DNA from: Larkinella terrae
GTDB lineage: Bacteria > Bacteroidota > Bacteroidia > Cytophagales > Spirosomataceae
Assembly (NCBI RefSeq): GCF_009668025.1
Contig: NZ_WJXZ01000014.1
Span: 888,448-952,447, forward strand
DNA: 64,000 bases
Direction of reading: 5' to 3'
A model generated the notes under the pieces. It saw nothing but the letters and a program-made list of their open reading frames with translations. It was not told the DNA's origin and searched no databases. Each line of letters opens with the position of its first letter. Positions within the stretch are counted from its first letter, which is position 1. Positions 12,203 through 56,313 of this stretch are shown piece after piece. A program made the translations under genes and the position numbers.

Positions 12203-13255
12203 ATGACAACGACCGTTCTTGATCTGAAAAAACAATATGCGGCATTCAAAGCCGAAAACCCGAAAGTGCGCATTCGCGACGCAGCTCAACAATTGGGCAT
12301 TAGCGAAGCCGAACTGGTTGCCACGGGCGTCGGCGAAACGGCTACGCAACTGGAAGGCGATTTTCGGGAATTATTGAAAGAAGTGCCGACGCTGGGGTAC
12401 GTCATGGCGCTCACCCGCAACGAAAGCGTGGTGCACGAACGCAAAGGCGAATACCTGAACGTGTCATTCAACGGCCACGTTGGGCTGGTGCTGGGCGAAG
12501 ACATCGATCTGCGGTTGTTTCTGGCTACCTGGAAATTCGGTTTTGCCGTACACGAAAACGATCGCAAGAGCCTGCAGTTTTTTGCCAGCGATGGCGAGGC
12601 CGTTCATAAAATTTACCTGACGGAGAAGAGTAACGAAGCCGCCTACGACGCCCTCGTTGCGAAATATCGGTCGGCCGACCAGTCCGGTAATCTGGAGATT
12701 GAACCCAAACCGGAAGCCGTTGTGCCAACGCCGGATTCTGAAATCGACGTGGTGGCTTTCCAGGAAGCCTGGCTAAACCTGAAAGACACGCACGAGTTTT
12801 TTGGCATGCTGCGGAAAAATAAGGTATCCCGGCTGCAGGCCATGCAGTTTGCGCCCGAAGGTTACGCCCTGCCGATCACGATGGATGCGGTGAAAAATGT
12901 CTTTACCGAAGTTTCCAAAACCGGTCTGCCAATCATGATTTTTGTCGGAAACCGGGGATGTATCCAAATCCATACGGGCGAAGTGCGGAAGCTGGTGGCG
13001 ATGGGGCCGTGGTTCAACGTGCTCGATCCGCAGTTTAACCTCCACCTGCGTGAAGACCACGTGGCGTCGGCCTGGGTGGTGAAGAAGCCAACCACTGATG
13101 GGATCGTCACGAGTCTGGAATTATACGATGCGGAAGGCAACCAGATTGCGTTGGTTTTTGGAAAACGCAAACCCGGAATTCCCGAAAAAACCGAGTGGCG
13201 TGAGGTCGTTGCGCAAACGGCTTTGGCTAACCCTGTCAGCGGTCAAAGACCCTGA
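12203..13255 (+). CDS. hmuS: haemin-degrading factor / haem chaperone (HemS/HmuS family)
   Basis: A 350-residue cytoplasmic protein with the two tandem HemS domains (about 1-165 and 185-340) expected for this family, which binds or degrades imported haem. Motifs include L-G-Y-V-M-A-L-T-R-N-E near 67 and W-F-N-V-L-D-P-Q-F-N-L-H-L-R near 271. The last residues, P-V-S-G-Q-R-P, and the TGA stop are encoded by the first unit of a 71-bp repeat array, which suggests that the repeat replaced the original end of the gene. It closes the hmuTUVS block, 9 bp after hmuV. Confidence 0.87.
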   Translation: MTTTVLDLKKQYAAFKAENPKVRIRDAAQQLGISEAELVATGVGETATQLEGDFRELLKEVPTLGYVMALTRNESVVHERKGEYLNVSFNGHVGLVLGEDIDLRLFLATWKFGFAVHENDRKSLQFFASDGEAVHKIYLTEKSNEAAYDALVAKYRSADQSGNLEIEPKPEAVVPTPDSEIDVVAFQEAWLNLKDTHEFFGMLRKNKVSRLQAMQFAPEGYALPITMDAVKNVFTEVSKTGLPIMIFVGNRGCIQIHTGEVRKLVAMGPWFNVLDPQFNLHLREDHVASAWVVKKPTTDGIVTSLELYDAEGNQIALVFGKRKPGIPEKTEWREVVAQTALANPVSGQRP

Positions 13256-13549
13256 CAGCGGTGGTCTCCAGATCAACGAAAATGATACGCTGAAAAGCTC
13301 ACCGCTGTCAGGGTCTTTGACCGCTGACAGGGTGGTCTCTAGATCAACGAAAATGATGCCCTGAAAAGCTCACCGCTGTCAGGGTCTTTGACCGCTGACA
13401 GGGTGGTCTCTAGATCAACGAAAATGATGCCCTGAAAAGCTCACCGCTGTCAGGGTCTTCGACCGCTGACAGGGTGGTCTCCAGATCAACGAAAATGATA
13501 CGCTGAAAAGCTCACCGCTGTCAGGGTCTTCGACCGCTGACAGGGTGGA
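13230..13549 (+). repeat. 71-bp tandem array with CCGCTGWCAGGG palindromes; first block inverted
   Basis: Units begin at 13230, 13301, 13372, 13443 and 13514 (the last is partial), an exact period of 71 bp. Each unit has a 33-bp palindromic block (two CCGCTGWCAGGG-type words) followed by a 38-bp spacer ending in gctgaaaagctc. In units 2-5 the block starts accgctgtcaggg. In unit 1 the block is its exact reverse complement, while the spacer keeps the same orientation. The array overlaps the end of hmuS and runs toward hmuY. Confidence 0.9.
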
Positions 13550-13681
13550 GAACGCCGAACTTGTGAACGTACTGGTCTTTCGAACGAACATCAATTTGTG
13601 CAAACTGCGGGGAGTCTGCCGGTGGAGCGTCGACATGGAAGACCGGGATTGTGTTTGATTACAAAGAAGCTAAATAAAACC

Positions 13682-17695: not shown

Positions 17696-17790
17696 TTAGT
17701 GACGATTGACGGCCGACGATAGACCATTGACGACCGACGATAGACCATTGACGATCGACGATTGACAATGGTCTATCGTCAATGGTCATT
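17696..17790. repeat. GACCATTGACGAT word repeat with hairpin
   Basis: Several tandem copies of gaccattgacgat-type words are followed by the reverse complement (caatggtctatcgtcaatgg). Related blocks are at 49107-49140 and 54546-54653. It fills the gap between the TonB receptor and the HmuY lipoprotein. Confidence 0.7.
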
Positions 17791-29537: not shown

Positions 29538-29569
29538 ATAAAATTTAAATAGTAGTGTAAAACGAGAAA

Positions 29570-29673
29570 CCGCTGATGGGGCTTCAATCGCTGACAGGGC
29601 TTCGACCGCTGATCGGGCTTCTAACCGCTGATCGGGCTTCAACCGCTGACAGGGCCTTTGGCCGCTGTCAGGG
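29570..29673. repeat. CCGCTGWCAGGG-family repeat cluster at the end of the S9 gene
   Basis: At least six copies of the 12-bp word, exact or degenerate (ccgctgatgggg, tcgctgacaggg, ccgctgatcggg twice, ccgctgacaggg, ccgctgtcaggg), are spaced 18-19 bp apart. The last copy (29662-29673) contains the TGA stop of the peptidase. Confidence 0.8.
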
Positions 29674-31677
29674 TTTTTTGTCGGCCAGTTGAACGGTTTT
29701 TACGTCTACGGTAATTTCCTTCAGGCGTTTGGCGACGTTTTCTGGCATGGATTCCTGGTAACGGCCGCCGAGGTGTTTGGCCAGAAATTTCTCCGCCATC
29801 GCCAGCATGGCCATGTTGTTGACGGGCCGCTGAAAACCGTGTCCTTCGTCGGGTGCGCACAGGTACTCGACCGGGAAACCGCGCTCGCGGAGGGCAATCA
29901 CGATCTGGTCGGACTCGGCTTTGTTGACGCGCGGATCGTTGGCACCCTGCACCACCAGCAACGGCGATTTGATCTTATCCGCCGAAAACAAGGGCGACTG
30001 TTTCATCAACTGCGCTTTGCCTTCGGGTGTGTTGGGGTCGGCCATCCGTTCATACAGGCGTTTGCGTTCGGATTCCCAATAGGGCGGAATGGAGTTCAGG
30101 AGCGTGATGATGTTGGAAGGTGCAACAATGGCGACCCCGGCCGCGTAAACATCGGGCGTGAAAGCCAGGCCGGCCAGCGTGGCATAACCGCCGTACGAAC
30201 CGCCCATGATGCCGACACGCTTCGGATCAGCAATGCCCTGATCGATCAAATATTTGACGCCCCAGGTAATGTCGTCCTGCATTTTTTCGCCCCACTGCTT
30301 GTTGCCCGCGTTCAGAAAGGCTTTGCCGTAACCGGTAGAGGCCCGGAAATTCATCGACAAAACCGCATAGCCGCGGTTCGCCAGAAACTGGTGGTACGCA
30401 TTGTAACCCCAGACATCACGGCCCCAGGGTCCGCCATGCGGGAAGATCACCACCGGCAGATTTCGGGGATCACGGCCTTTGGGCAGCGTCAGAAAAGCCG
30501 GGATTTCCAGCCCGTCCGACGATTTGTAACGAACTGCTTCCATGCGCGCCAGATCGTTGATCGGCAGTTTGGGGCGGGGGCGGTATTGAAACGTCAATTC
30601 CTTGGTTTTGCGGTCGAACAGAAAGGTTGCCCCGGGGTCCGTGTCGCTCGTGGCCGAAAGCAACCAGTATTGTTCGTCGTTCGTGGAAGAGCCAAAATAG
30701 ATGTCTACGCCCGGCAACTCCCGAAGAATGAACTGAAAATCTTTCTCAAAGACCTTGTCCTTCCAGTACCGGCGCAGTCGGTCGTCCGTATAAGTTGTAA
30801 AAATAGGCTCTTTGGTAACTTCGGAAATGGCAATACCCCCAAAATCCACCTTTTTCAGCGGATCGGATTCAACCGATTGTTCTTTCAGCGTAACCGGATT
30901 GAGCAGAATCAGCTTCTGAAGATCATTTTTGTCCTTGTTGGTAACGAGGTAAAACCGCTGGTTATCTTTGTGAAAACCAACCGGATAACTGGTTTCATTA
31001 ATGGAAGAGGAATAAATTTTGGTCATCCCGGCATCATCGACGCGCAGAATTTCCGAACTGCCGTCGGCCGCCGTGCTGGTGGCTAGCCGGAGTTTGTCGT
31101 CCCAGTCGAAAAACCAGCCCGAAATATGTTCGGTGTTCTTGCGGACGAGCGTTTTTTCACCGGTGGTCAGATTCAGTTTGTAGAGGTCGTGCCAGGCTTT
31201 GTCGCGATCGTTCAGGCCCACATACAAGGAGTTTGGATCCGTTTTGGGAGCCCGGTATATCAGCACCCGAACCCCTTTCAGATTCGTCAGATCCCGGGCT
31301 GTGGGCACATCCTGACCGGTTTTTAGCGCTTCGGACGGATCGACGGCGTATACATTGAAGTTTTCGTCACCTCCTTTATCCTGCGAAAAAAGCAGGAATT
31401 TGCCGTTGCGCGACCAGAAATAATCGCGGATGGGACGCAGCGTGTCGGCGGTCATCGGTTTGGCCGACGTAAACGGATCATCGCGCTTTTTAACCCAGAT
31501 GTTGCGGGTTCCTTTATACGGTTTGATGAACGACATGTAGGCACCATCGGGCGAAAGCTGGGCACCGGTAATTTCCGGATCGCCGAAAATCAGTTGCCGA
31601 TCGATGAGTGCCGGAATCTGGGCCATTGCCGCGGAAGCCAGCCAAAATGTGAGAAAGAGCAGCGCAAGCTTCTTCAT
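29668..31677 (-). CDS. S9-family prolyl oligopeptidase-like serine peptidase
   Basis: A 669-residue protein with a signal peptide (about 1-20, ending A-A-M-A), a seven-bladed-propeller-like N part (about 30-400) and a C-terminal alpha/beta-hydrolase catalytic domain. The nucleophile Ser494 sits in G-G-S-Y-G-G-Y-A; the acid is probably in A-N-D-P-R-V and the His in E-G-H-G-F. These peptidases cleave short peptides, often after Pro, or act as acylaminoacyl peptidases. The stop codon lies inside a CCGCTGTCAGGG repeat, which contributes the C-terminal Pro. It is a one-gene unit. Confidence 0.9.
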   Translation of the reverse strand: MKKLALLFLTFWLASAAMAQIPALIDRQLIFGDPEITGAQLSPDGAYMSFIKPYKGTRNIWVKKRDDPFTSAKPMTADTLRPIRDYFWSRNGKFLLFSQDKGGDENFNVYAVDPSEALKTGQDVPTARDLTNLKGVRVLIYRAPKTDPNSLYVGLNDRDKAWHDLYKLNLTTGEKTLVRKNTEHISGWFFDWDDKLRLATSTAADGSSEILRVDDAGMTKIYSSSINETSYPVGFHKDNQRFYLVTNKDKNDLQKLILLNPVTLKEQSVESDPLKKVDFGGIAISEVTKEPIFTTYTDDRLRRYWKDKVFEKDFQFILRELPGVDIYFGSSTNDEQYWLLSATSDTDPGATFLFDRKTKELTFQYRPRPKLPINDLARMEAVRYKSSDGLEIPAFLTLPKGRDPRNLPVVIFPHGGPWGRDVWGYNAYHQFLANRGYAVLSMNFRASTGYGKAFLNAGNKQWGEKMQDDITWGVKYLIDQGIADPKRVGIMGGSYGGYATLAGLAFTPDVYAAGVAIVAPSNIITLLNSIPPYWESERKRLYERMADPNTPEGKAQLMKQSPLFSADKIKSPLLVVQGANDPRVNKAESDQIVIALRERGFPVEYLCAPDEGHGFQRPVNNMAMLAMAEKFLAKHLGGRYQESMPENVAKRLKEITVDVKTVQLADKKP

Positions 31678-43143: not shown

Positions 43144-43220
43144 TTGCTCCCAACAAGTCTATTTGTTACCAACAAGACTAATTGCTCCCAACAAGTCTAC
43201 TTGTTATCAACAAGACTTTA
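43144..43220 (+). repeat. 38-bp tandem repeat of CAACAAGTCT words
   Basis: Two near-identical units begin at 43144 and 43182 (ttgctcccaacaagtcta...). Each contains the short inverted pairs aacaag/cttgtt. No coding sense is seen. Confidence 0.7.
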
Positions 43221-54545: not shown

Positions 54546-54653
54546 TGACCATTGACGATAGACCATTGACGATTGACCATCGACTAAGGACAATTGACCA
54601 TTGGCAAAAGCCATAGGCTTATTAGCGTCCAATTAATGGTCAATGGTCAATCG
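54546..54653. repeat. GACCATTGACGATAGACC word repeat
   Basis: Three tandem gaccattgac words are followed after 50 bp by the inverted form (aatggtcaatggtcaatcg). It is related to 17696-17790. It directly follows the NlpC/P60 stop. Confidence 0.7.
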
Positions 54654-56064: not shown

Positions 56065-56073
56065 CTAACTCCA

Positions 56074-56313
56074 CCGCTGACAGGGTGTCGTGCCCTGACA
56101 GCGGTCGAAGACCCTGTCAGCGGCTGGTTAGCTATTTATTGGAAACAATATTGCTATTACTGAATAGAAAGGAAAACACAGTCAGCGTCTGGCTAATTAA
56201 TTGCCGCTGGCCGGGTCTTTCTTTTTTATAAGTATTTGAATAAAAAGAGGTTAATAAGCCATCTTGCCGCTGACAGGGTCTTCGACCGTATCGACGGCCC
56301 GGCGCTGTCAGGG
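56074..56313. repeat. CCGCTGWCAGGG-family repeat cluster between convergent genes
   Basis: Copies are at 56074-56085, 56093-56104 (inverted), 56112-56123 (inverted) and 56267-56278, plus gcgctgtcaggg at 56302-56313. Degenerate copies lie between them. It spans the whole gap between DUF983 and the sugar isomerase, both of which end into it. Confidence 0.8.

Follow-up and report, generated by a model that had tools for sequence, protein, structure and literature searches.

A 71-bp tandem array at the 3' end of hmuS in Larkinella terrae: a probable REPIN-like element of a RAYT-linked REP family

The array at the end of hmuS

In the analysed stretch of the Larkinella terrae genome (64,000 nucleotides, hereafter the window), the gene hmuS, with matches to the HemS (3e-86) and ChuX (4.1e-65) domains, ends within an array of palindromic blocks at positions 13230-13546. 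The array consists of one 33-nt block on the minus strand, followed by four tandem units of a 38-nt spacer and a block on the plus strand, with a period of 71. Three further stretches of the window contain related sequences. The features are listed below.

12203-13255, plus strand: hmuS (HemS and ChuX domains); last seven codons (PVSGQRP) and stop within the left REP arm
13230-13262, minus strand: REP block, left arm of the inverted doublet, hmuS stop codon inside
13263-13300, no strand: 38-nt spacer, unit 1
13301-13333, plus strand: REP block, right arm, unit 1, TCTTTG
13334-13371, no strand: 38-nt spacer, unit 2, three substitutions
13372-13404, plus strand: REP block, unit 2, TCTTTG
13405-13442, no strand: 38-nt spacer, unit 3, same as the unit 2 spacer
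13443-13475, plus strand: REP block, unit 3, TCTTCG
13476-13513, no strand: 38-nt spacer, unit 4, same as the unit 1 spacer
13514-13546, plus strand: REP block, unit 4, TCTTCG
29569-29674, plus strand: second family copy in the window, tandem degenerate half-blocks and one good block, at a gene end
56073-56124, no strand: third family copy, a plus half-site followed by a minus block at 56092-56124
56266-56313, plus strand: variant block with a longer centre, half-sites at 56266 and 56301

The five blocks at an exact 71-bp period, as originally predicted, were borne out: block starts lie at 13230, 13301, 13372, 13443 and 13514, every step being exactly 71, and TRF run on the window reported 13226-13548 with period 71, 94% matches and a score of 530. 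The first block had been described as the perfect reverse complement of all the others. This is true of units 1 and 2, since 13230-13263 (34 nt) is perfectly reverse complementary to 13300-13333 and 13371-13404, but the match to 13442-13475 and 13513-13546 in units 3 and 4 is 97%. Similarly, the supposedly unchanged spacer is identical in units 1 and 4, but units 2 and 3 carry the same three substitutions. The left arm and units 1-2 have TCTTTG as the inner hexamer of the block, and units 3-4 have TCTTCG. The 13-mer half-site of the block was matched 23 times in the 64-kb window (at most two mismatches), compared with a mean of 2.19 and a maximum of 7 in 100 shuffles. No T run follows the block in the array, and an Rfam scan of the window at gathering thresholds gave no match.

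The claim that the array rewrites the end of hmuS also held, as the stop codon TGA (13253-13255) lies in the left arm and the protein ends in ANPVSGQRP. The case is not unique: in the L. terrae loci examined, blocks contain the stop codons of 15 open frames (100 codons or longer), hmuS included. The hmuS orthologue of genome G008 ends in ALAVN and its stop precedes its element. The gap 3' of hmuS was compared in six other genomes of the genus. It was empty in G002 and G003 and contained a doublet with a different spacer in G008 and an extended hairpin with a variant pair in G006; G001 and G004 had other hairpins there. The small gene after hmuS (13562-13680) looks internally deleted and shortened relative to its orthologues; in G008 it has about 75 codons and no Pfam match.

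The window contains further tandem repeats as well: repeats of 21 bp and 7 bp at 17700-17790 and 54546-54603, both of the TGACGAT/TGACCAT type, with an inverted copy after the first, and a 38-bp repeat at 43144-43217 built from the 19-nt unit CCAACAAGTCTAATTGTTA.

The repeated block is a REP

The half-site ACCGCTGWCAGGG (13 nt) occurs 143 times in the L. terrae genome (7.85 Mb, 22 contigs) and the block with two half-sites 101 times (at most two mismatches); the reversed control gave zero in both searches. As DNA, the block folds into a hairpin made of ACC, a bulged G, CTGTCAG, GGTC, a three-base loop, GACC, a second bulged G, CTGACAG and GGT. Its fold energy is -10.4 kcal/mol (z -4.54), and none of 200 shuffles folded as well.

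Covariation was assessed on 190 distinct blocks from loci of four genus genomes, of which 168 were 33 nt long and were kept, and 22 were left out. Over 85 distinct 33-nt blocks, 93.4% of pair cells were paired (shuffled mean 86.2%, maximum 87.7%), and 94 two-sided Watson-Crick changes were found in five of the 14 pairs, both figures being uncorrected for kinship. The block is thus a bulged, covarying and dispersed hairpin, i.e. a repetitive extragenic palindrome (REP). The block lacks a GT[AG]G foot, as the tetranucleotide adjoins 2 of 190 blocks on one strand and 7 on the other, against a background of 7 and 1. CGTC beside the block was not enriched in the same 190 blocks, and an unsystematic look at the blocks identified no target-site duplication.

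Blocks are usually arranged as opposed pairs. Among 78 pairs of neighbouring blocks in four genomes of the genus, 53 were (-)(+), 11 were (+)(-), 10 were (++) and 4 were (--); in L. terrae alone, (-)(+) accounted for 31 of 50. Gaps ranged from 18 to 177 nt in (-)(+) pairs and measured 5-8 nt in ten of the eleven (+)(-) pairs. Seven of the 53 (-)(+) doublets have arms of different length, leaving 46 that could be compared, and in 20 of these the two arms are identical, as against 2.6% across doublets. Arms were identical in none of the eleven (+)(-) pairs. This does not prove that the whole doublet is the moving unit, because spacers differ from doublet to doublet and homogenisation at the site could make arms alike.

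One such (-)(+) doublet is formed in the window by the left arm, the first spacer and the first right arm, and the unit of spacer and right arm stands there in four copies. What looked like an 'inverted' block is this doublet's left arm, the spacer and right arm having probably been amplified in tandem. Comparable local amplification was seen at two other loci (L060 and L051), in L168 of Salinimicrobium nanhaiense with 11 copies, and in L218 of a Chitinophagaceae genome with seven close copies. The eleven S. nanhaiense copies (L168, 6142-7140) share one orientation, lie mostly 89-91 nt apart and are interleaved with another short palindromic repeat.

Genomic position of the blocks

Gene settings were derived from heuristic ORF calls in the L. 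terrae genome. According to these, 37 of 63 block clusters lie between co-directional genes, 21 between convergent and 5 between divergent ones. Many clusters are found within 12 nt of a stop codon, and at least two of the 63 are inside long open frames. At orthologous intergenic sites (L117/L138/L164, L054/L137, L080/L151 and L139/L165), the number and orientation of blocks differ between species, from which it seems that these sites have been repeatedly rebuilt.

RAYT genes and distribution of the family

In L. terrae, a gene for a REP-associated tyrosine transposase (RAYT) on contig C6 (1507295-1507924) sits between two doublets, and all four blocks have the hexamer TCTGCG. The RAYT genes of G002, G003 and G006 are likewise flanked, by more degenerate block copies. 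The HuH motif is NHFH and the tyrosine motif is YIHCNP or YIHNNP, NHFH and YIHxNP being invariant. The protein scored below cut-off against both NCBIfam REP_Tyr_transpos (E 8.4e-14, 51.7 bits, cut-off 80) and Pfam Y1_Tnp (14.4 bits, cut-off 23), and a PDB sequence search returned only an uninformative viral capsid match (E 0.063). In Salinimicrobium xinjiangense (L207), family hairpins with 0-5 mismatches stand on both sides of an interrupted RAYT-like gene, the open part of which, used as a query, retrieved the L. terrae homologue on C6.

RAYT homologues were detected at 1e-20 in 64 of 150 genomes of the taxonomic family. Identity of at least 73% was restricted to four of the 150, all in the genus and L. 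terrae among them, the next best being 55%. These four genomes contain 74, 32, 31 and 7 exact blocks, and the other five genomes of the genus contain 4, 1, 0, 0 and 0; two of the latter, which have 1 and 0 blocks, carry more distant RAYTs. Blocks occur in 10 of the 150 genomes overall, including G018, G042, G068 and G091. G008, G005 and G018 have blocks without a close RAYT, and in G018 there is no RAYT at 1e-20. At 26 further RAYT loci inspected by eye, hairpins (stems of at least 7 bp or REP-like matches, counted without a shuffled control) were seen on both sides in 20 and on one side in 6.

A block scan of named genomes found at least 88 stretches. The matches listed include Larkinella humicola, L. 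punicea, L. rosea and Larkinella sp. C7, the other Bacteroidota genera Salinimicrobium, Arcicella, Flectobacillus, Lacibacter, Paludibacter and Flavobacterium, and MAGs of Spirosomataceae, Bacteroidales and Chitinophagaceae.

Genes matching Y1_Tnp (PF01797), of which there are 28 in nine genomes of the genus, three of them in L. terrae, were considered as candidate mobilisers and rejected, as the half-site (at most one mismatch) was absent from all 28 loci to a distance of about 1.5 kb, or a shorter one near contig ends. Many of these genes look IS200-like by eye, and one at C1:397119 adjoins a different hairpin family. A second hairpin family, GCCCACGGTTNNAACCGTGGGC, at L. terrae C1:396842-396980 (L032, L117), has 11 copies (at most one mismatch), and an IS200-like Y1 gene adjoins two of these.

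Stems extended by neighbouring DNA

The stems of some blocks continue into the DNA on either side. An extension score of at least 6 was reached by 19 of 190 Larkinella blocks, where about 0.3 would be expected from re-paired flanks. The hmuS site of G006 is one example: 17 nt of hmuS coding DNA that precede the hairpin recur inverted directly after it (17/17). The inverted copy was at chance level (10-11/17) in six orthologous hmuS regions (those of L. terrae, G000, and of G001, G002, G003, G004 and G008), and the sense copy remained recognisable (12-15/17) in four of the six. Altogether, five extension arms were compared with orthologues. Two of these were uninformative (the RAYT flank in L166, and L156) and three were usable, the other two being i) a 20-nt extension at C1:393626, common to G003 and G006, which L. 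terrae does not have (13/20, shuffled maximum 13), and ii) a perfect 20-nt extension in G003 at C4:219681, likewise missing from L. terrae (11/20).

Genus g5 (G110, G155 and G140; loci L318-L357) has RAYTs with a different core hairpin, represented by 87 palindromes (at most one mismatch). Of these, 44 were read in list order, mostly those with an exact core. Perfect extensions of 11-41 bp, differing from site to site, were present in 42 of the 44, and the remaining two had a score of 9 over 12 and a score of 4; the re-paired control gave 1.9 of 44 at a score of at least 6. Most sites agree in the first two to three bases of the extension, and the core may therefore slightly exceed the 25 nt used. 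Some g5 stems contain the stops of neighbouring ORFs. At each of two orthologous g5 gaps (L329/L343 and L344/L356), the stems are perfect in both species yet differ in sequence, which indicates that the two arms change together. Both flanks of one L357 hairpin are present in G145 and G130, but without a readable homologous empty site; for this reason, the polarity of extension in g5 rests only on the stops found in some stems.

Inverted duplication was also looked for around whole doublets. On the outside, a score of 4 was observed in 6 of 53 and none was higher (about 0.65 expected at 4), and the inner spacer ends of the 53 showed no excess at scores of 3 or more. Doublets therefore do not simply result from one such copying event.

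Perfect hairpins of at least 14 bp without the REP core were found ten times in 11 Larkinella loci (247,758 bases in total). A 29-bp perfect hairpin of this kind is located on L. terrae C1 (L117, 5066-5127).

Comparison with known systems

In Escherichia coli, BIMEs are mosaics of opposed bulged palindromes downstream of genes. The Larkinella array resembles them in its opposed bulged palindromes 3' of genes, but differs in phylum, sequence and foot, and in that its extra units all have one orientation.

REPINs are described as inverted REP doublets near RAYTs, with poorly conserved spacers and compensatory changes, and tandem clusters of near-identical REPIN units are known (PMC3116915). The Larkinella array shares with the REPINs of that account inverted doublets, differing spacers, compensatory changes, a nearby RAYT and tandem units. 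In contrast to them, the Larkinella family has another sequence, no GTAG-type foot, mutually dissimilar spacers and stem extensions made of host DNA. TnpAREP subclass 2.6 of Bacteroidetes, with the motif YIH[QN]NP, is reported to be flanked by 'atypical secondary structures' without GT[AG]G, copies of which occur elsewhere in the genome (PMC6006769). The Larkinella RAYT agrees with the subclass as presented there in its host phylum (Bacteroidota), the motif YIH[CN]NP and atypical foot-less hairpins; it has NHFH and LFERPF where the subclass has NH[LIV]H and WQ. On motifs, it is a tentative candidate for this subclass. Extension of the stem by site is a feature of Larkinella and g5 that is absent from the account of subclass 2.6 in the consulted part of PMC6006769.

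CGTC-type REPs, families outside the GTAG type, are said to be without a dedicated transposase (PMC3733652). The Larkinella REPs resemble those so described in their non-GTAG status but differ in having a linked RAYT and in that CGTC is not enriched. The literature already covers REP/REPIN-RAYT systems, tandem clusters of REPINs and the atypical hairpins next to TnpAREP genes of Bacteroidetes. No description of the present repeat with its site-specific stem extension was found in the open-licence PMC papers searched, which is a weak sign of absence.

A model of the array and alternative explanations

We consider it very probable that the array is a REPIN- or BIME-like element whose REP family has a linked RAYT gene. 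The original proposal that a mobile palindrome inserted in both orientations is supported to the extent that the palindrome is a dispersed REP hairpin with a linked RAYT; its mobility is what we infer. Points that speak against the model are the lack of a GTAG-type foot and of target-site duplications, the RAYT scores below cut-off, the spacers that vary among doublets, and the blocks of G008, G005 and G018, which have no close RAYT. The RAYT may move or rebuild doublets. According to the model, a doublet would have arrived between hmuS and the next gene, and hmuS would have acquired its present 3' end and stop codon from it. Duplication of the 71-bp unit might then have come about by slippage or unequal exchange between the bounding GGTGG repeats, or by RAYT processing of an intermediate, and the copies could later have been partly homogenised. 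Slippage or exchange, and processing of intermediates, have likewise been suggested as origins of REP arrays elsewhere (PMC3733652).

An error in the array itself or in its copy number has a very slight chance of being right. Although the L. terrae assembly is composed of 22 contigs, in which short reads could have mis-sized a 317-bp repeat, the array units differ from each other by substitutions, other unequal arrays of the same REP family exist, and G008 has a doublet at the same hmuS site. Judged from one genome per species, we give even less credence to a phase-variable switch, in which the first block was inverted by recombination between the palindromes and would still flip, altering hmuS or the genes after it. 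The arms of the array are indeed perfect inverted repeats, separated by 36 nt, and species differ in block orientation at some sites (for example L117 vs L138/L164, L054 vs L137, L139 vs L165). However, such differences can equally be explained by block replacement, and since opposed arms are the usual state throughout the genome (see the 53 of 78 pairs above), no flip is needed to account for an 'inverted' first block; the inversion originally offered as one of two readings is therefore superfluous. It is also quite improbable that the hairpins are maintained by selection alone, serving as terminators of transcription or as 3' ends of mRNAs, without transposition, and that this selection made the stems perfect. 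Clusters do lie close to stops and avoid divergent gaps (21 convergent, 37 co-directional and 5 divergent settings from heuristic ORFs), other hairpins fill the hmuS gap in G001 and G004, and compensatory changes would be predicted by selection as well. Against this, unrelated sites and several genera of Bacteroidota share the block, which also adjoins a RAYT gene, the array block has no T run after it, and perfect inverted copies of 17-20 nt of adjacent DNA, absent in orthologues, are hard to obtain by point mutation. Selection for perfect stems may nevertheless act in addition.

In the REPIN-like model, hairpins of the family would gain inverted neighbouring DNA by fold-back synthesis, either through template switching or through priming from the hairpin 3' end, and host-derived stem extensions would follow at sister sites, including hmuS in G006. 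Template switching in replication has been shown for RNA genes, where it produces reverse-complement copies that create or mend perfect stems (PMC8794818); the Larkinella and g5 extensions are like these copies, but recur around one repeat family. An unlikely alternative holds that the extensions are older terminator stems with REPs inserted in their loops, and not fresh copies. Extensions are located at gene ends, and long perfect hairpins without the core do exist (the ten found in 11 loci of the genus). Nevertheless, neighbouring ORF stops lie inside several g5 stems, and at the hmuS site an older terminator stem as the source was rejected, as the extension is coding sequence and its inverted half is at chance level (10-11/17) in all six orthologous regions.

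As for the route of fold-back synthesis, we favour template switching at hairpins in Larkinella, where extension is occasional. In g5, extension is nearly universal among the hairpins read, which leaves room for a self-primed route. After RAYT cleavage or one-sided joining to a single-stranded target, the 3'-OH of a folded hairpin of this RAYT family would prime copying of the adjacent host strand, so that each insertion would build a perfect palindrome particular to its site, the arms reaching some 50 bp at most; tandem arrays like the present one would be by-products of repeated rounds. We regard this as a possible but rather doubtful scenario. It has been noted that the 3'-OH left by RAYT cleavage might prime replication, and the spread of REPs has been called poorly understood (PMC8266576). 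Should self-priming be true, REPs would spread in a manner resembling a rolling hairpin, the element capturing an inverted copy of its target.

Significance

An odd array with an 'inverted palindrome' can thus be placed, with the high probability given above, within a repeat-plus-transposase system of Bacteroidota, the partner gene of which falls below the Pfam cut-off. Insertions give genes new ends, as in the 15 open frames including hmuS, and consequently have a bearing on protein C termini and transcript 3' ends. The site-specific inverted copies would preserve a trace of the copying reaction and open it to testing, as one can tell from the extension which side was copied.
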